DNA of 64,000 bases from Ruminococcus sp. (GTDB lineage: Bacteria > Bacillota > Clostridia > Oscillospirales > Ruminococcaceae), in the NCBI GenBank assembly GCA_017626015.1, contig JAGAJO010000009.1:62001-126000 (forward strand). Reading direction: 5' to 3'. Shown in pieces: positions 5,432-55,290 of the stretch. How positions within the stretch are numbered: position 1 is the stretch's first letter; each line of letters opens with the position of its first letter. A program made the translations under genes and the position numbers. The notes beneath the pieces were generated by a model. It worked only from the letters and a program-made list of their open reading frames with translations. It searched no databases and had not been told where the DNA came from.

Positions 5432-5471
5432 TTCCGGATCGTTTCATAGTTTGGCTTAAATTTAACATTGT

Positions 5472-5595
5472 GTTTCAGGGGTGGTGAAATTCCACACCGG
5501 AGGTGATTATGCTGCGGCATATAAGTCCTCGACCGCAGAAATGCGCTGATTCGGTGAAAATCCGAAACCGACGGTAAAGTCCGGACGGAAGAAAC
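5472..5595 (+). promoter_or_regulatory. FMN riboswitch (RFN element)
   Basis: The conserved RFN blocks occur in order: an outer helix GTTTC (5472-5476) pairing with GAAAC (5591-5595), GGGGTGGTGAAATTCCACACCGGAGGTGAT in pieces along 5479-5508, a variable arm with GACCGCAGAAATGCG, then GATTCGGTGAAAATCCGA and CCGACGGTAAAGTCCGGA. These are the hallmark segments of the FMN aptamer. It lies directly before ribU and is followed by an intrinsic terminator, so FMN binding should end transcription early. Confidence 0.95.
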
Positions 5596-5617
5596 GACAG
5601 TTTAATTTTGAATTGTG

Positions 5618-7765: not shown

Positions 7766-7784
7766 CGAAAATTCTTTAAAATTT

Positions 7785-7882
7785 CCTCATCTTTCGGAAA
7801 TAACCGCAGGATTTAGCACCTTGACTTTCATCAGGTTGCCGGGCTTCACAGGACCTGTTTCCTCCACCGCTCTTGATAAGGC
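7785..7882 (-). promoter_or_regulatory. SAM-I (S-box) riboswitch
   Basis: Read on the minus strand the conserved S-box segments follow in order: CTTATCAAGAG, GGTGGAGGAAACAGG, CCTGTGAAGCCCGGCAACC, AAGGTGCTAAATCCTGC and the closing GATGAG that pairs with CTTATC to form P1. It sits in the leader of metK ahead of a terminator, the classic arrangement in which SAM binding stabilises P1 and allows termination. Confidence 0.97.
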
Positions 7883-26409: not shown

Positions 26410-26705
26410 AAAAAAAGCTCTATTGCCGCATAACAAACGTTATGGGACGATAGAACCGTGGTGCCACCCAATTTCCCGACAGAAAACCTGTCGGCTCACA
26501 GATACGCATTTCTCAATGGAAAATCAATATCCTGTCACACTAACGTAGGAAACACGGCGAATGATACTCGTTTCAAAACCGAAACTTTCACACTGCTCCT
26601 CACAAATCCATTCACCGAAAAAACTTGTACTGTCTCACACCACCCGACAGCTCTCTGAAACGCATTTGATCAGCTACTTACTTTTGATCAACGGATTTAT
26701 TATAT
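26410..26705 (-). promoter_or_regulatory. Tryptophan-specific T-box leader with terminator
   Basis: On the minus strand the leader shows the stem I apical motif (CAGAGAGCTGTCGGGTGGTG), then GAA followed by TGG (complement of 26608-26610), the predicted specifier codon for tryptophan, and the T-box core GGGTGGCACCACGG (complement of 26456-26469). The bulge reads TGGC, whose C would pair with the G73 discriminator of tRNA-Trp. A terminator with stem GTTCTATCGTCCCATAAC/GTTATGCGGCAATAGAGC and seven T follows (26410-26456). Uncharged tRNA-Trp should allow transcription of trpE-A. Confidence 0.95.
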
Positions 26706-48638: not shown

Positions 48639-49871
48639 TTACTTGTTGGCGTTTCTCTTCTGCTCAAGTTTTGCACGAACCTTTATAGGCAGACCGAATA
48701 GATTGATAAATCCTGCCGAATCAGCCTGATTGTAAACGTCGTCCTCGTCAAATGTTGCGACCTCTTCATCATAAAGGGTGTAAGGCGAAGTAACGCCGGC
48801 ATTTATGATGTTGCCCTTGTACAGCTTAAGCTTAACATCGCCGGTAACGGTTTTCTGCGTTTCGGTAACGAATGCGCTCATGGCCTCTCTGAGAGGAGTG
48901 AACCACTGACCGTTGTATACGATGTCGGCAAACTTTATGCCGAGATACTGCTTGATCCTTGCTGTTTCCTTATCAATCGTAATAGTTTCAAGGATCTCAT
49001 GAGCCTTATAAAGAATTGTTCCGCCGGGAGTTTCGTACACGCCTCTGGACTTCATGCCCACCAGTCTGTTTTCAACCAGATCGGCAAGACCGATACCGTT
49101 TGCTCCTCCAAGCTCGTTAAGCTTTGTAACAAGCTCCTTGCCGTTCATCTCAACGCCGTCGATGGATGTAGGTATGCCCTTTTCAAAATGAATGGTGATA
49201 TAGGTAGGCTTATCTGGAGCCATGATAGGTGAAACACCCATTTCCAGGAAACCTGGCTTTTCATACTGCGGCTCGTTTGCGGGATCCTCAAGATCCAGTC
49301 CCTCGTGGGAAAGGTGCCACAGGTTCTTGTCCTTGGAATAGTTGGTCTCTCTGTTGATCTTAAGAGGAATGTTGTGAGCCTCTGCATACTCGATCTCCTG
49401 CTCTCTGGACTTAAGATCCCAGATCCTCCAAGGAGCGATGATCTGCATATCGGGAGCGAACGCCTTTATAGCCAGCTCAAATCTTACCTGATCGTTTCCC
49501 TTTCCGGTGCAGCCGTGGCATATAGCGTCGGCGCCCTCCTTGAGAGCGATCTCGGCGATCCTTTTTGCGATAATAGGACGTGCAAAGGAAGTACCGAGCA
49601 GATACTGATTTTCATAAACGGCGCCTGCCTGAACGGTAGGATATACATAATCCTCGATAAATTCTTCAGTAAGGTCTTCTATGTAGAGCTTTGAAGCGCC
49701 TGTTTTGATAGCCTTTTCCTCAAGACCGTCAAGCTCAGTACCCTGACCTACGTTTCCCGAAACAGCGATGACCTCGCAGTTGTTGTAGTTTTCCTTAAGC
49801 CACGGAATAATAATAGAAGTGTCAAGTCCGCCGGAATAAGCAAGCACAACCTTTTTGATTTCTTTTGCCAT
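48639..49871 (-). CDS. argG: Argininosuccinate synthase
   Basis: Condenses citrulline and aspartate using ATP. The ATG at 49871, behind GGAGGAG, gives 410 residues beginning [19 protein letters not shown], the N-type PP-loop; an upstream in-frame ATG at 49904 adds an unconserved decapeptide before the ribosome site. Further motifs: [54 protein letters not shown] (in two halves) and [11 protein letters not shown]. It is the first gene of the arginine cluster, preceded by a near-perfect promoter. A downstream small pentapeptide gene follows within 36 bases. Confidence 0.97.
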
Positions 49872-49933
49872 AATATACTCCTCCATGATGTGAATTTCAG
49901 GCATAAGGTTTTTAATATAATCAGATAATATAT

Positions 49934-49961
49934 ATTATACACCATTATGCATTATTGTCAA
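49934..49961 (-). promoter_or_regulatory. Promoter of the arginine cluster
   Basis: On the minus strand a perfect TTGACA (complement of 49956-49961) and a perfect TATAAT (complement of 49934-49939) are 16 bases apart, about 65 bases ahead of argG. The spacer contains TGCATAAT, one of several similar motifs nearby. Confidence 0.85.
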
Positions 49962-50048
49962 GGGCTTTTGCATAAATTTTCAGAAAATATGCAAAATATT
50001 ATGCTTATCAATGAATAAAAATCATAAATATGCATAATTCTATTCATT
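49945..50048. promoter_or_regulatory. Possible ArgR binding region upstream of argG
   Basis: The AT-rich stretch carries several TGCATAA/TGAATAA-like half-sites: TATGCATTATT inside the promoter spacer, TTGCATAAAT, ATATGCAAAATATTATGC, ATGAATAAAAATCAT (50011-50025) and TGCATAATTCTATTCA (50031-50046). They resemble the ARG-box half-site TGAAT/ATTCA, but spacing varies and no copy is a full consensus. The cluster at an arginine promoter makes ArgR control plausible. Confidence 0.35.
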
Positions 50049-50172
50049 CGCAGCGTTTCACGCTGCATTTTACAGGTAAAGCCGGTGTTTTTTTACGTCA
50101 AAAAACAACATCTTGTTTCAATACCTGATATCATTATACCATATATTCCGAAAAAAAGCAATAACAAAAAGG

Positions 50173-50201
50173 TTGCATTTTTTGAATTTTTATAGTATAA
50201 T
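50173..50201 (+). promoter_or_regulatory. Promoter of the flavin reductase-like gene
   Basis: TTGCAT (50173-50178) and a perfect TATAAT (50196-50201) are separated by 17 bases, 26 bases before the start codon. Confidence 0.7.
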
Positions 50202-50227
50202 TAAATAAGCAATCAGGAAAGGCGGTT

Positions 50228-50812
50228 ATGGTCATGACGAAAAACGAACTTGAAGCTATAGGATTTACAAAGGTATCTCCAATAATACTTGATACAATGG
50301 ATTTCAATCCGTATCGTAAGGTCGGCAAGGACTGGTTTCTGGTCACGGCAGGGAACGAAAGCGGCTGGAACACAATGACGGCGTCATGGGGATTTGCAGG
50401 CGTAATGTGGGGAAAGAACACCTTCACCACAGTAATCAGACCCCAGAGATACACAAAGGAGTTTATTGACAAGGAAGAATACTTTACAATTTCATTTTTT
50501 GGTGAGGAAATGAAAAAAGCGTTAAGCTATTGCGGTTCGCACAGCGGCAGAGATTGCGACAAGGCAAAGGAAACGGGACTTACCCCCATGTTCATCAATG
50601 ACAGCAGCGAGGTTTACGATGGTGAACACAGTTTTGATGTTACTTCATTCGAGCAGGCGGAGCTTGTGCTGGTGTGCAGAAAGGCATATGTTCAGGAGAT
50701 GAGACCGGAGTGCTTCACCGTTAAGGAAAACGACGAAAAGTGGTACGCCGAAAAGGACTACCATGTTCAGTATATCGGTGAAGTTCGGGCGGCATACATT
50801 CGGGAAAAGTAG
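50228..50812 (+). CDS. Flavin reductase-like (FMN-binding split barrel) protein
   Basis: A 194-residue protein of the flavin reductase-like family, which binds FMN in a split beta-barrel and often reduces flavin or another substrate with NAD(P)H. WFLVTAGNESGWNTMTASWG is the typical FMN phosphate strand, followed by MWGKNTFTTVIRPQRYTKEFI and YFTISFFGEEMKKALSYCGSHSGRD, which matches the family's second conserved stretch. The C-terminus YHVQYIGEVRAAYI closes the barrel. AGGAAAGG precedes the start; an alternative ATG lies two codons on (50234). It stands alone behind its own promoter. The physiological substrate is unknown. Confidence 0.88.
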   Translation: MVMTKNELEAIGFTKVSPIILDTMDFNPYRKVGKDWFLVTAGNESGWNTMTASWGFAGVMWGKNTFTTVIRPQRYTKEFIDKEEYFTISFFGEEMKKALSYCGSHSGRDCDKAKETGLTPMFINDSSEVYDGEHSFDVTSFEQAELVLVCRKAYVQEMRPECFTVKENDEKWYAEKDYHVQYIGEVRAAYIREK

Positions 50813-50887
50813 ATATATCGGACTTTAAGAGGGAGCAGCAGATGCTGCTCTCTTAATTTTTTTATGTTAAATTTGTGCAATATGCCT

Positions 50888-50917
50888 ATGACAAAATCAA
50901 AAAAAATATGTTATAAT
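50888..50917 (+). promoter_or_regulatory. Likely promoter of the CarD gene
   Basis: ATGACA (50888-50893) and a perfect TATAAT (50912-50917) are 18 bases apart in an AT-rich gap before the CarD-family gene. Confidence 0.6.
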
Positions 50918-50978
50918 TATTATACTAATTAAAATAATCATTATATTGACGTTATCTTAAGGAAAGGTGTGGGATTTT

Positions 50979-51488
50979 ATGTATAAGACGGGAAGCGTCG
51001 TTTCATACGGGTCATCGGGCGTTTGCAGGATAGACGGCGAGATACGGCAGAGAGTAAAGGGCGAAATGAAGCAATATCTTGTTCTGAAGCCTGTTTTCAG
51101 AGACAATTCTACCGTATATATCCCGTTGGATAACAATAAGCTTATGTCAAGACTTAAGCCGGTCATAACAGATACCGAGGCTGAAGAAGTGATCTCGGCA
51201 ATGTCTGATTGCGATGAACGCTGGATATCCGATGACGGGCAGAGAACGGTCCTTTTCCGGGAGATCCTTTCCGAAGGGGATGTCAAGCGTGTTGCCATGA
51301 TGGTGCATTCTCTTTATATGCACAGGAAGTCGCAGCTTGCCAAGGGCAGAAAGCTCCATGCATCTGACGAGCATTTTTTTAAGGATGCCGAGCAGCTGCT
51401 GTTCGATCAGCTTGCCCACGCTCTGGGGATACAGCCTGACGAGGTCGGGGGATATCTCACACGCCGTCTGGCAGCACGGCTTGCATGA
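50979..51488 (+). CDS. CarD-family transcriptional regulator
   Basis: Binds the RNA polymerase beta subunit and adjusts promoter opening. The ATG at 50979 has AGGAAAGG at a suitable distance and gives 169 residues; a GTG at 50967 is possible but lies inside that site. The N-terminal Tudor-like RNA polymerase-interaction domain (residues 1-60) reads YKTGSVVSYGSSGVCRIDGE, then KQYLVLKPVFRDNSTVYIPLDN, the typical CarD_CdnL_TRCF pattern. The C-terminal helical domain ends EQLLFDQLAHALGIQPDEVGGYL. Clostridial CarD proteins of this size are common; targets are unknown. Confidence 0.92.
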   Translation: MYKTGSVVSYGSSGVCRIDGEIRQRVKGEMKQYLVLKPVFRDNSTVYIPLDNNKLMSRLKPVITDTEAEEVISAMSDCDERWISDDGQRTVLFREILSEGDVKRVAMMVHSLYMHRKSQLAKGRKLHASDEHFFKDAEQLLFDQLAHALGIQPDEVGGYLTRRLAARLA

Positions 51489-51536: not shown

Positions 51537-51565
51537 TTGACAAATCCGACACGGTATGATATACT
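51537..51565 (+). promoter_or_regulatory. Promoter of the tyrosine T-box transcript
   Basis: A perfect TTGACA (51537-51542) and TATACT (51560-51565) are 17 bases apart, just before the T-box leader. Confidence 0.82.
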
Positions 51566-51579
51566 TCACATAATGTGTA

Positions 51580-51849
51580 AATGCAGTGACGGGAATAAGT
51601 AGCGTCGTTCCGGCGTTTCAGAGAGCTTTCGGGCGGTGGAAGAAAGTACGGCGGACGAAGTGCGAATACCTCTCCGAGCGGATCTTGCGAATGTGTGCAG
51701 TGTTGTACAGTAGTGAGATACGGGTGCGCCCGTTAAAGCGCAGAGGCTTAGCTTTTTGCCGAGCCGTAAAGGTCGGGATATTCCGATAAACTGAGGTGGT
51801 ACCACGATAATTCGTCCTCTGATAAGCTTAGGCTTGTCGGAGGATTTTT
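51580..51849 (+). promoter_or_regulatory. Tyrosine-specific T-box leader with terminator
   Basis: The stem I apical segment TTTCAGAGAGCTTTCGGGCG (from about 51618) parallels that of the trp leader. GAA followed by TAC (51667-51669) is the predicted specifier, a tyrosine codon, in the same context as the GAA-TGG of the trp leader. The T-box core is AGGTGGTACCACG (51794-51806); its bulge TGGT would pair with an ACCA end, matching the A73 discriminator of tRNA-Tyr. The terminator TCCTCTGATAAGC/GCTTGTCGGAGGA (51815-51843) with five T follows. tyrS lies 2.2 kb downstream. Confidence 0.94.
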
Positions 51850-51871
51850 ATTTTTGAATTTCGGAGGAAAA

Positions 51872-52185
51872 ATGAAAATTCTGACTGGATAGTTGAGGGA
51901 ACATACCGTGAAAGTCAGAGATCTCTTTATGATTATGCCGATAAGATAATTTTTCTTGATACGCCGCTACGTAAGAGATATTTCAGGATTGTTTTCAGAT
52001 TTATCAGGCAAAAACTGGGCGTAGAGAGGTGTCATTATAGATCCGATCTTAATATGCTGAAAATGATGTTCAAGTGGACTTCTGAATTTGAGAGATACCG
52101 TGAGTCTCACGAACGCAGATTGATGCAGTATAAGGATAAGCTGATCTGGATAAAAAGTCCCGAAGAGCTGAAAGACAGACTTTAA
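51872..52185 (+). pseudogene. Broken P-loop nucleotide kinase-like gene (FlaR/adenylate kinase-like)
   Basis: Right after the T-box a CGGAGGAAAA ribosome site leads into ATG at 51872, but this frame stops after six codons (MKILTG). In another frame, from about 51871 to the stop at 52183-52185, lies the C-terminal part of a P-loop kinase-like protein: DWIVEGTYRESQRSLYDYAD, KIIFLDTPLRKRYFRIVFRF, FERYRESHERRLMQY and LIWIKSPEELKDRL. This resembles the second half of FlaR/adenylate kinase-like proteins. The P-loop half is missing, so an internal deletion with frame change probably removed it while keeping the gene's start. The only in-frame ATG would give 44 residues. Confidence 0.7.
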
Positions 52186-52198
52186 CAGGAGTGATGCT

Positions 52199-53083
52199 AT
52201 GCAGACGGTTCCCTGCAAGACAATTTTACAGAAAAATAAGTCTTCAGAATGGTTCGGCAACGACTATAATATGAATCTGTACCGAGGCTGCTGTCATGGC
52301 TGTATTTACTGCGACAGCAGGAGCGAATGCTACCGCATTGATAATTTCGATACGGTTAGAGCAAAGGAAAACTGCATAGAGATCCTCCGTGATGAGCTGA
52401 GACGAAAGGTGAGAACAGGCGTTATCGGAACGGGAGCAATGAGCGATCCGTACAATCCCTTTGAGAAAACGGAACGGCTGACAGAGAAAGCGCTTATGCT
52501 TATCGACGCTTATAATTTCGGCGTAACGGTGATCACAAAGTCCGATCTGATCACAAGGGATATCGACCTGTACAAGCAGATCTCGGAGCATTCTCCCGTG
52601 CTTTGCAAAATGACAGTAACGACCTGTGACGACAGACTGTGCCGTATGATCGAACCCAATGTCAGCGTTTCAAGCGAACGTTTTGACGCTCTTGCGAAAA
52701 TGTCCTCTGCGGGACTTAAAACAGGGATAACCTTAATGCCAGTCCTGCCTTTTATAGAGGATACAGCAGAAAACATTCTGGGGATCGTGCGAAAGGCTTA
52801 CCAATGCGGAGTAAATTACATATATCCTGCGTTTGGAATGACCACTCGTCAGAACCAGCGGGAGTACTACTACAGCAAGCTAGACAAGCTTTTTCCGGGA
52901 CTGTCGGATAAGTACCGCTCATACTACGGAGAACGCTACGAATGCGCTTCCCCCAATGCAAGAAAGCTGTGGGGAATATTCACCAGAGAGTGCAAACAGT
53001 ACGGAATTTTGTACAATATGAGAGAGATAATAGCCGATTACAAGCGTGGCTACGGCGATATGCAGTTAAGCTTTTTTGATTAG
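52199..53083 (+). CDS. Radical SAM protein, SPL-like (Rv2578c-type)
   Basis: A 294-residue radical S-adenosylmethionine protein. The cluster motif is CCHGCIYCDSR (about residues 31-41), with the three cysteines of CxxxCxxC that bind [4Fe-4S]. Around it are FGNDYNMNLYRGC and IGTGAMSDPYNPFEK, a stretch typical of the spore photoproduct lyase-like family, and VTVITKSDLITRDIDLY further on. Members are widespread, mostly of unknown substrate; this one lacks the DNA-lesion features of true spore photoproduct lyase. AGGAG lies before the start. It is the first intact gene after the tyrosine T-box and shares the transcript with the nitrilase-family gene and tyrS. Confidence 0.85.
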   Translation: MQTVPCKTILQKNKSSEWFGNDYNMNLYRGCCHGCIYCDSRSECYRIDNFDTVRAKENCIEILRDELRRKVRTGVIGTGAMSDPYNPFEKTERLTEKALMLIDAYNFGVTVITKSDLITRDIDLYKQISEHSPVLCKMTVTTCDDRLCRMIEPNVSVSSERFDALAKMSSAGLKTGITLMPVLPFIEDTAENILGIVRKAYQCGVNYIYPAFGMTTRQNQREYYYSKLDKLFPGLSDKYRSYYGERYECASPNARKLWGIFTRECKQYGILYNMREIIADYKRGYGDMQLSFFD

Positions 53084-53121
53084 ATAGTTTTTTATATATT
53101 ATGTGAAAGACGGTTGAATTT

Positions 53122-54000
53122 ATGATAAACAAAGATATTTTTACTGCAGCACTTTTGCAGCTTCTGCCTGAAAAAAGCCTTGAAGAAAACAAGGTCAAGG
53201 GTATCGAAGCCTGTAGAAAGGCAAAGCAGATGGGTGCGGATATAGCCGTGTTTCCGGAAATGTGGAGCATAGGGTATGATCCTGATAAGTTTTCAAACGA
53301 CTTTGCGGTATCTCCCGACGACGGTTTTGTCAAAGCGTTCGGAGAGCTTGCAAAAGAGCTTGATATGGCGATAGCGGTTACGTATCTTGAAAAATTTCAG
53401 CCCGCTCCCAGAAATACTGTCGAGATATTCGACAGATCCGGCAATTCTGTCATGAGGTATGCAAAGGTCCACACCTGCGATTTTGGAGACGAAAGGGTCC
53501 TGACTCCCGGAGAGGATTTTTATTCCGTCGGGCTTGATACAAAAAACGGCGTCATAAAAATTGGAGCAATGATCTGCTACGACAGGGAGTTTCCCGAAAG
53601 TGCAAGAATTTTAATGCTTAAAGGCGCAGAAATAATTCTTGTACCCAACGCCTGTCCTATGGAGATAAACAGACTTTCACAGCTCAGAGCAAGAGCGTAT
53701 GAAAATATGATCGGTATCGCTACCGTAAATTATCCGAAGGGTCAGCCTGACTGCAACGGGCATTCCTCCGCATTTGACGGAGTTGCTTACAGACCGGATG
53801 AATGCGGCTCAAGAGATACCCTGATCATCGAGGCAGGCGAACAGGAGGGAATCTATCTTGCTAGCTTCCCGATAGACGAAATACGTGAATACCGAAGCCG
53901 TGAGGTACACGGAAACGCTTACCGCCGTCCGAATAAATATACTATTATAGTATCGGAGGAAAAGAACGATCCCTTTATAAGAGAGGATCACAGAAACTGA
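53122..54000 (+). CDS. Carbon-nitrogen hydrolase (nitrilase superfamily)
   Basis: Cytoplasmic amidase-type enzyme of 292 residues. The Glu-Lys-Cys triad is present: Glu in IAVFPEMWSIGYD (about Glu46), Lys in RYAKVHTCDFGDE (about Lys115) and Cys in GAMICYDREFPESARIL (about Cys153). Other signatures: AVTYLEKFQP, VPNACPMEINRLSQLRARAYENM and NGHSSAFDGVAY. The superfamily cleaves amides, nitriles or carbamoyl compounds; ranges such as N-carbamoylputrescine amidase or omega-amidase cannot be told apart here. It has no own promoter and follows the radical SAM gene by 38 bases and precedes tyrS by 27, so it belongs to the tyrosine-controlled unit. Confidence 0.88.
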   Translation: MINKDIFTAALLQLLPEKSLEENKVKGIEACRKAKQMGADIAVFPEMWSIGYDPDKFSNDFAVSPDDGFVKAFGELAKELDMAIAVTYLEKFQPAPRNTVEIFDRSGNSVMRYAKVHTCDFGDERVLTPGEDFYSVGLDTKNGVIKIGAMICYDREFPESARILMLKGAEIILVPNACPMEINRLSQLRARAYENMIGIATVNYPKGQPDCNGHSSAFDGVAYRPDECGSRDTLIIEAGEQEGIYLASFPIDEIREYRSREVHGNAYRRPNKYTIIVSEEKNDPFIREDHRN

Positions 54001-54027
54001 TAATTAATTAAATTGGAGGAATATAAA

Positions 54028-55248
54028 ATGACATTATTTGAGGAACTTCAGAGACGAGGACTTCTCGCACAGCTTACCGACGAGGAAGAGATCAAGGAGC
54101 TTATAAACGCAGGAAAGGCGACATTCTATATAGGCTTTGACCCTACGGCTGACAGTCTCCATGTCGGACACTTTATGGCGCTCTGCCTTATGAAACGTCT
54201 GCAAATGGCTGGAAACAAGCCTATCGTCCTTATCGGCGGAGGCACAGCTATGATAGGCGACCCCTCGGGCAAGACCGATATGCGTAAGATGATGACAAAG
54301 GAAACTATCAACCACAATGTTGAATGCTTTAAAAAGCAGATGTCTCATTTCATTGACTTTTCAGAGGACAAGGCTATCATTGTAAACAACGGCGACTGGC
54401 TGCTTGATCTTAACTATGTTGACGTTCTCCGTGATGTGGGTGCCTGCTTCTCGGTAAACAAAATGCTTACATTTGAGTGCTACAAGCAGAGAATGGAAAG
54501 GGGACTGACTTTCCTTGAGTTCAACTACATGATAATGCAGTCCTACGATTTCTATAAGCTGTTTACCGATTACGGCTGCAATATGCAGTTCGGCGGCGAC
54601 GATCAGTGGGCGAATATGCTTGGCGGTACCGAGCTTATCAGAAAGAAGCTGGGCAAGGACGCTTACGCTATGACAATTACGCTCCTGCTCAATTCAGAGG
54701 GAAAGAAAATGGGCAAGACGGAAAAGGGCGCAGTATGGCTTGATCCGGAAAAGACTTCACCCTACGATTTTTACCAGTACTGGAGAAACGTTGCGGACGC
54801 AGACGTTATCAAGTGCCTGAAAATGCTTACCTTTGTTCCTATAGAGGAGATCGAGGAAATGGAAAAGCACATGGAGGGTGCTGAATACAACAAGGCTAAA
54901 GAGCTGCTTGCTTACGAGCTTACAAAGCTTGTTCACGGCAAAGAGGAGGCAGACAAGGCTGACGCAGCCGCTAAAGCTATCTTTGCAGGCGGCGGGGACA
55001 GCGCAGATATGCCTACAACAACGCTTACCGCAGACGACGTTGATGCAGACAACAAGATCGGGATCCTTACAATGCTGGTAAAAGCGGGTCTTTGCTCTTC
55101 AAACGGTGAGGCGAGACGTCTTGTAACGCAGAACGGCATTGCCGTAAACGGTGAAAAGTTTACCGACCCCAAGGGAATGATCGATCTTTCTGAACCGGTA
55201 ACGGTAAAAAAAGGCAAGAAGGTTTTCCATAAGGTAATGCTGGGATAA
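54028..55248 (+). CDS. tyrS: Tyrosyl-tRNA synthetase
   Basis: Charges tRNA-Tyr with tyrosine. The ATG at 54028, behind TTGGAGG, gives 406 residues beginning MTLFEELQRRGLLAQLTD; an ATG at 54013 lies before the ribosome site. The class I signatures are HVGHF (residues 45-49, HIGH type) and KKMGKTEKG (KMSKS type), with YDFYKLFTDYGCNMQFGGDDQWANM between them. An S4-like RNA-binding domain closes the protein (about 345-406, CSSNGEARRLVTQNGIAVNG). It is the last gene of the T-box transcript and is followed by a terminator. No second T-box lies directly upstream. Confidence 0.97.
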   Translation: MTLFEELQRRGLLAQLTDEEEIKELINAGKATFYIGFDPTADSLHVGHFMALCLMKRLQMAGNKPIVLIGGGTAMIGDPSGKTDMRKMMTKETINHNVECFKKQMSHFIDFSEDKAIIVNNGDWLLDLNYVDVLRDVGACFSVNKMLTFECYKQRMERGLTFLEFNYMIMQSYDFYKLFTDYGCNMQFGGDDQWANMLGGTELIRKKLGKDAYAMTITLLLNSEGKKMGKTEKGAVWLDPEKTSPYDFYQYWRNVADADVIKCLKMLTFVPIEEIEEMEKHMEGAEYNKAKELLAYELTKLVHGKEEADKADAAAKAIFAGGGDSADMPTTTLTADDVDADNKIGILTMLVKAGLCSSNGEARRLVTQNGIAVNGEKFTDPKGMIDLSEPVTVKKGKKVFHKVMLG

Positions 55249-55253
55249 GATCA

Positions 55254-55290
55254 TAAATGCAGCGGATATTCCGTCCGCTGCATTTTTTTG
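55254..55290 (+). terminator. Terminator of tyrS
   Basis: AAATGCAGCGGA pairs with TCCGCTGCATTT around a short loop and is followed by a run of seven T. Confidence 0.9.

Follow-up and report, generated by a model that had tools for sequence, protein, structure and literature searches.

Tyrosine-specific (Tyr) T-box leaders normally stand directly ahead of tyrS, the tyrosine--tRNA ligase gene, and it is established that T-box leaders are switched according to whether the cognate tRNA is charged or uncharged. In Bacillus subtilis, too, we take the leader to lie directly ahead of tyrS. Here we analysed a 64,000-nucleotide stretch of a Ruminococcus sp. genome (contig JAGAJO010000009.1, positions 62,001 to 126,000; hereafter the window, numbered from its first letter), in which a Tyr T-box leader is followed by the remnant of a kinase-like gene, a gene for a radical S-adenosylmethionine (SAM) protein, a gene for a nitrilase-superfamily hydrolase and only then by tyrS. 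We conclude that this locus is probably a tRNA-Tyr-controlled operon with an old passenger slot, whose contents change, between leader and tyrS.

The B. subtilis tyrS leader, named in a passage of PMC7583486 as the original T-box, resembles that of the window in its Tyr specifier, UGGN bulge, terminator/antiterminator switch and tyrS target; the two loci differ in the 2.2 kb, holding two intact genes and a gene remnant, that separate leader from tyrS in the window. Another parallel is given by Wels et al., 2008, whose Figure 4 legend (PMC2494555) describes tRNA ligases that are not first in their operon and yet are under a T-box of the same specificity; those operons share with ours a leader of the ligase's own specificity and a ligase further down, whereas the part of the paper available to us describes neither a slot with contents changing among close relatives nor a radical SAM gene. 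Passages of the same paper report that most T-box operons (>75%) hold genes of one functional class and give the use of T-box specifiers to guide the annotation of the genes behind them as an aim, and TBDB, according to a passage of its description, draws on the downstream gene as an aid in assigning specifiers (PMC7778990). We found no description of a link between a radical SAM gene and a Tyr T-box, or of such an arrangement, in the literature searched (titles and abstract beginnings in a limited library). A T-box operon with a ligase that is not first is already known; the changing slot and the radical SAM link are what this locus adds.

Results

Identity of the leader

The leader (Table 1) starts 11 bases 3′ of its promoter and contains two competing structures, a terminator hairpin of -21.5 kcal/mol and an antiterminator of -6.5 kcal/mol (each folded alone); judged by position, each helix depends on the CCTC strand at 51816-51819, which makes the two mutually exclusive. 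A tRNA-Tyr gene of the same genome carries the anticodon GTA and an encoded 3′ end ACCA (ARAGORN scan; 8 of 30 tRNA loci of the genome), and these fit the specifier and the T-box bulge, respectively. Across 22 aligned Tyr leaders of the genus, the TAC specifier, the TGGT bulge and the TTGACA element at a spacing of 17 are invariant (22/22), and a stable terminator hairpin folds in each. An RF00230 score above the gathering score, a Tyr specifier fitted by tRNA-Tyr, and an exclusive terminator ending in a T run together identify the leader as a transcriptional Tyr-specific T-box, for which switching by uncharged tRNA-Tyr is predicted. An earlier note on this DNA, made from its letters alone, had read a T-box with TAC and TGGT right after a strong promoter, and both the covariance score (115.6 bits) and the promoter score (11/12) bear that out.

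Gene order between leader and tyrS

We found tyrS in 27 of 29 congeneric genomes, and a Tyr T-box together with tyrS on one contig in 23 of the 29 (excluded from the distance count were G005 and G026, for contig ends; G007 and G018, with no tyrS match; and G011 and G019, with no T-box). In the window, 2206 nt separate the end of the T-box from tyrS; among the 23 genomes this distance is 65 nt in G001 and 520-2695 nt in the remaining 22, G008 being counted despite a split tyrS. At the locus of this last genome (L140), tyrS appears as two matches ~67 nt apart and is broken or misassembled.

The genes found in the gap differ from genome to genome. A mechanical count sorts the plus-strand open frames of at least 60 aa in 29 intervals (23 of the genus and six of other genera) into 22 families; in this count a minus-strand shadow frame masked a PNPOx-like match in L138. 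Representatives of 15 of the 22 families, two of them the window's own genes, were scanned against Pfam. The radical SAM gene occupies 15/29 intervals, and other families include a PNPOx-like protein, several GNAT acetyltransferases, a methyltransferase, CrcB, a glyoxalase, NUDIX and DUF1963, together with some frame families that lack a Pfam match. Broken gene pieces lie in the slot of the window, L192, L129 and L136. More distant named relatives carry other genes again, namely a dCTP deaminase (L027), an AMP-binding enzyme (L078), and UvrA with a protein matching a Zeta_toxin-family kinase domain (L025). On the other side of the T-box, positions 48639-51488 of the window hold argG (-), a flavin reductase-like gene and a CarD-like gene. 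Both argG and the flavin reductase-like gene also lie upstream in 10 congener loci, which makes the site syntenic, with change taking place in the slot behind the leader. The leader-tyrS gap is therefore best described as a likely old, changing passenger slot that is common in the genus.

The radical SAM gene appears to be an old resident of the slot, as judged from where its relatives lie. We found orthologues (64-100% identity) in 11 of the 29 congeneric genomes, and 11/11 stand behind a Tyr T-box; three further congeneric matches, at 46%, are located elsewhere. At E 1e-80, matches occur in 66 of the 297 genomes of the family. Outside the genus, 60 of 64 radical SAM regions were fetched (L206, L210, L223 and L235 having less than 1 kb of upstream sequence) and linkage was read from the T-box motif and tblastn: eight of the 60, from six genera, lie behind a Tyr T-box, with tyrS on the same contig in seven of the eight. 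For seven of these T-boxes the score is at or above the Rfam gathering score; the eighth, in L197, shows the motif only. The TAC specifier is present in the 19 T-boxes examined, six of which were read by eye (the pattern missed five and matched elsewhere in L024). On a 72-row radical SAM tree, a single change accounts for the 20 linked rows (95/76 support; 94% of 200 bootstrap trees). The simplest reading is that the radical SAM gene was captured at the leader once, was long retained and was lost several times. Four points weigh against this history: the single origin of the linkage has modest support, 18/29 congeners are without an orthologue, five changes must be assumed on the 31-row TyrS tree to explain where the gene occurs, and in L193 a close radical SAM protein (79%) accompanies a distant TyrS (68%), so that gene exchange is possible.

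The earlier note had supposed that insertions separated the leader from tyrS. In its strictest form this would be a recent event confined to the window's lineage, in which all three passenger genes (nitrilase, radical SAM, kinase) entered between an ordinary leader and its tyrS, and such an event would suit the decay of the kinase gene, the restriction of the nitrilase gene to two of the 29 slots, and the direct leader-tyrS order seen in the named relatives L011 and L012 and in the congener G001. We consider it very unlikely, since displacement is found in 22/23 congeners, and since every congener that has a radical SAM orthologue carries it behind the Tyr T-box, a linkage seen in six more genera as well. 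The position of G001 also speaks against it: on the TyrS tree (31 rows; L140, L142 and L146 left out) this genome neighbours the window's genome and G014 (86/92), among radical SAM-bearing relatives, and its direct order therefore looks derived. A lineage-specific insertion of all three genes is rejected on the radical SAM distribution and the TyrS tree, and the survey of gene order in relatives, with its changing contents, speaks against a one-off insertion as an account of the gap.

Insertion does fit the other two passengers, the nitrilase gene and the kinase remnant, both common to the window and G254, and to this extent the supposition of the earlier note stands. Relatives of the nitrilase-family protein (57-60%) occur in eight other congeners on contigs other than the tyrS contig, and of the 29 intervals only those of the window and of G254, a member of another genus (75% identity), contain the gene. 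On the TyrS tree G254 falls together with G012, close to the window (96/91), and it has a further decayed piece of the kinase-like gene at the matching place (L192). This distribution could have arisen by common descent, with later losses, or by exchange from one lineage to another.

Transcription of tyrS

The Rfam scan of the window found no second T-box near tyrS, and no plus-strand terminator-like site was found between 51856 and 54028. In the last 250 nt ahead of tyrS the best promoter-like site scores 8/12, a value reached by 128/200 shuffles, and over the whole interval the best site scores 10/12 (52243-52270, inside the radical SAM gene; 26/100 shuffles reach 10). The same pattern recurs in the 21 displaced loci tested (promoter and terminator tests covered 22 of the 23 genomes, with G025 left out; shuffles preserve base composition only): the promoters ahead of the congeneric Tyr T-boxes score 10-12 of 12, the best sites in the last 250 nt ahead of tyrS score 7-9 of 12 with 23 to 200 of 200 shuffles reaching the same, and no terminator was found from leader to tyrS by a finder that recovers 20/22 T-box terminators. 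Genes on the same strand, short gaps, no internal terminator and no promoter standing out from shuffles are what the window presents, and a single unit of transcription, beginning at the T-box promoter and including tyrS, is likely. In that case tRNA-Tyr control should extend to the radical SAM and nitrilase genes, as the earlier note had argued; its statements that tyrS lies ~2.2 kb on without a T-box of its own, and that neither promoter nor terminator intervenes, held in these scans, and the shared control it proposed has the support of the sequence.

Several observations count against a single unit. The 10/12 site at 52243 is one; another is that the finder sees a terminator within 300 nt past tyrS in only 5/21 loci, and so misses some; a third is that the scans cover sigma-70-type sites and other promoter types would be missed. 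In addition, G011 and G019 have tyrS with no T-box at the gathering score in the ~10 kb upstream, and in both (L132 and L130, respectively) a frame resembling the PNPOx-like passenger is still ahead of tyrS; keeping the passenger without a detected T-box, they indicate that tyrS can be expressed otherwise there.

From the 52243 site, the sigma-70-type scope of the scans and the two genomes without a detected T-box, a hidden internal promoter could be proposed to drive tyrS, with the T-box now controlling the passengers only. We regard this as improbable, given that the sites ahead of tyrS stay within the shuffle range in 21/21 displaced loci (the lowest being 23/200), that the leader is kept in 23 genomes in which tyrS ends the run, and that the gap between the nitrilase gene and tyrS in the window is 27 nt. 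The single unit running from the T-box promoter through tyrS thus keeps our preference. G019 and G011 are neighbours on the TyrS tree, and both have apparently lost the leader.

Genes of the unit

The features of the unit are collected in Table 1. The next intact genes behind the T-box are those for the radical SAM and nitrilase-family proteins, as the earlier note had read them. Its description of tyrS as the fourth gene applies only if the broken kinase gene is counted.

Table 1. Features of the Tyr T-box unit, in window positions.
Feature	Position	Strand	Details
Promoter	51537-51565	+	TTGACA-17-TATACT, TG ahead of the -10 element; score 11/12
Tyr T-box leader	51577-51822	+	RF00230, 115.6 bits; gathering score 93
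Specifier TAC; T-box bulge TGGT	51667-51669; 51797-51800	+	Read in the leader sequence
Leader intrinsic terminator, competing with antiterminator	51814-51855 (hairpin 51814-51845)	+	14 pairs and T run
Broken P-loop kinase-like gene	51872-52185	+	Ribosome-binding site and start codon retained, then frame change
Radical SAM protein, 294 aa	52199-53083	+	PF04055; CxxxCxxC present
Carbon-nitrogen hydrolase (nitrilase superfamily), 292 aa	53122-54000	+	PF00795; Glu/Lys/Cys motifs present
tyrS, tyrosine--tRNA ligase	54028-55248	+	TIGR00234, 413.5 bits; above equivalog cut-off 113.8
Intrinsic terminator after tyrS	55255-55285	+	13 pairs, then T run

The kinase-like gene is broken, in agreement with the earlier note: from the start at 51872 its frame runs for six codons, the P-loop half is missing, and the C-terminal half resumes in another frame, where residues 1-90 of a 98-residue stretch align to residues 65-154 of an intact 176-aa P-loop protein (L156). 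Intact relatives are open frames of 174-221 aa in six other genomes (197 family genomes searched), and the three that were read measure 176-182 aa. The remnant itself has no Pfam match, and the 'kinase' label rests on the AAA_18 match of the L156 protein and a P-loop read by eye.

Neither enzyme reaches the curated cut-offs of the NCBIfam families nearest to it. The radical SAM protein resembles the PA0069 (NF033668) and Rv2578c (NF038135) families in score (139.6 and 129.6 bits, respectively) and in its CxxxCxxC motif, and differs from both in lying below their cut-offs (360 and 430). The nitrilase-family protein has N-carbamoylputrescine amidase as its best match, both in NCBIfam (TIGR03381, 91.3 bits) and among solved structures (5h8i, 62.3 bits; search at E 0.001, 43 sequences), and is not assignable to it at the cut-off of 410.25; a stricter search at E 1e-20 found no solved relative.

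A functional reason for keeping the radical SAM gene has also to be weighed, namely that the substrate or partner of its product is tyrosine, Tyr-tRNA or a peptide containing tyrosine, which would be why the gene is held under the Tyr T-box, the other passengers being neutral. This idea is compatible with a single origin followed by lasting retention of the gene beside the leader amid turnover of its neighbours, and also with a low ratio of nonsynonymous to synonymous change (dN 0.044, dS 0.726 against the G014 orthologue; other pairs tried were saturated). We nevertheless find it doubtful: the orthologue's absence from 18 congeners counts here as well, no link is seen in 52/60 regions outside the genus (several of them cut short where their contigs stop), the match tables give no function for the nearest named families, no solved relative was found at E 0.01, and the linkage could reflect plain inheritance of gene order. 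The tyrosine- or peptide-linked role that the earlier note had raised for both enzymes can be entertained for the radical SAM protein, and no result here favours it for the nitrilase.

The tyrS gene gives a single match in the window's genome (G000). A second tyrS paralogue that would free the window copy was considered and rejected on this count.

T-boxes of other synthetases

We asked the same question of other T-boxes. Seven of the nine others in the window's genome stand directly ahead of trpE, hisS, alaS, ilvA, cysE-cysS, pheS or ileS (gene names were read from translations), and thrS, identified in the same way, lies behind a 117-aa membrane-like frame that follows the T-box at C17:27089-27304 (L010). 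Across the genus, and among the matches listed, alaS lies more than 250 nt from its T-box in 19/27 genomes with a recognised alaS T-box (8 of the 27 leaders recognised by motif alone) and hisS in 6/16 genomes with a recognised hisS T-box; a plus-strand frame of at least 90 aa was called in 11/19 displaced alaS gaps and 5/6 displaced hisS gaps. Displacement as a Tyr-only oddity is accordingly rejected, and accretion of sequence between leader and synthetase is, as gene order indicates, a wider tendency in the genus that is strongest for Tyr of the three tested.

In nine congeners (L313-L319, L322 and L323) alaS lies ~930-1020 nt behind its T-box, and seven of the nine gaps hold a frame of 280-315 aa with a similar start. 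The remaining one of the nine other T-boxes in the window's genome, at C11:184127-184378 (L004; 96.2 bits), is followed by small frames and a 256-aa methyltransferase-like gene.

Discussion

We propose that RNA polymerase would start at the promoter at 51537 and transcribe the T-box. With charged tRNA-Tyr, transcription would halt at the terminator at 51814; with uncharged tRNA-Tyr, the GUA anticodon would pair with the UAC specifier and the ACCA end with UGGU, the antiterminator would form, and radical SAM, nitrilase and tyrS genes would be transcribed together, both the switching and the single transcript being predicted steps. The slot between leader and tyrS would be old and would gain, break and lose genes, the radical SAM gene having entered it in a forebear of several genera, by a single capture in the simplest case, and having often been retained. 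Because tyrS stays at the end of the same transcript, it would retain its control throughout.

More speculatively, and with a good deal less confidence, the region directly behind synthetase T-boxes of this genus (Tyr most, Ala and His too) might act as a gene-capture slot, in which incoming genes would become starvation-inducible without a promoter of their own and those useful when amino acids are limiting, perhaps a radical SAM gene linked to tyrosine or tRNA-Tyr, would be kept. For annotation, the first gene behind the Tyr T-box varies by species, and the specifier alone is therefore a weak guide in this genus. Against this variation, its retention in at least seven genera marks the radical SAM gene as a candidate for a genuine function connected with tyrosine.

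Other regulatory elements of the window

A second T-box lies at 26440-26700 (-; 114.1 bits), directly ahead of a gene read as trpE. The window also holds a flavin mononucleotide (FMN) riboswitch at 5467-5600 (+) and a SAM riboswitch at 7784-7882 (-), both above their gathering scores.

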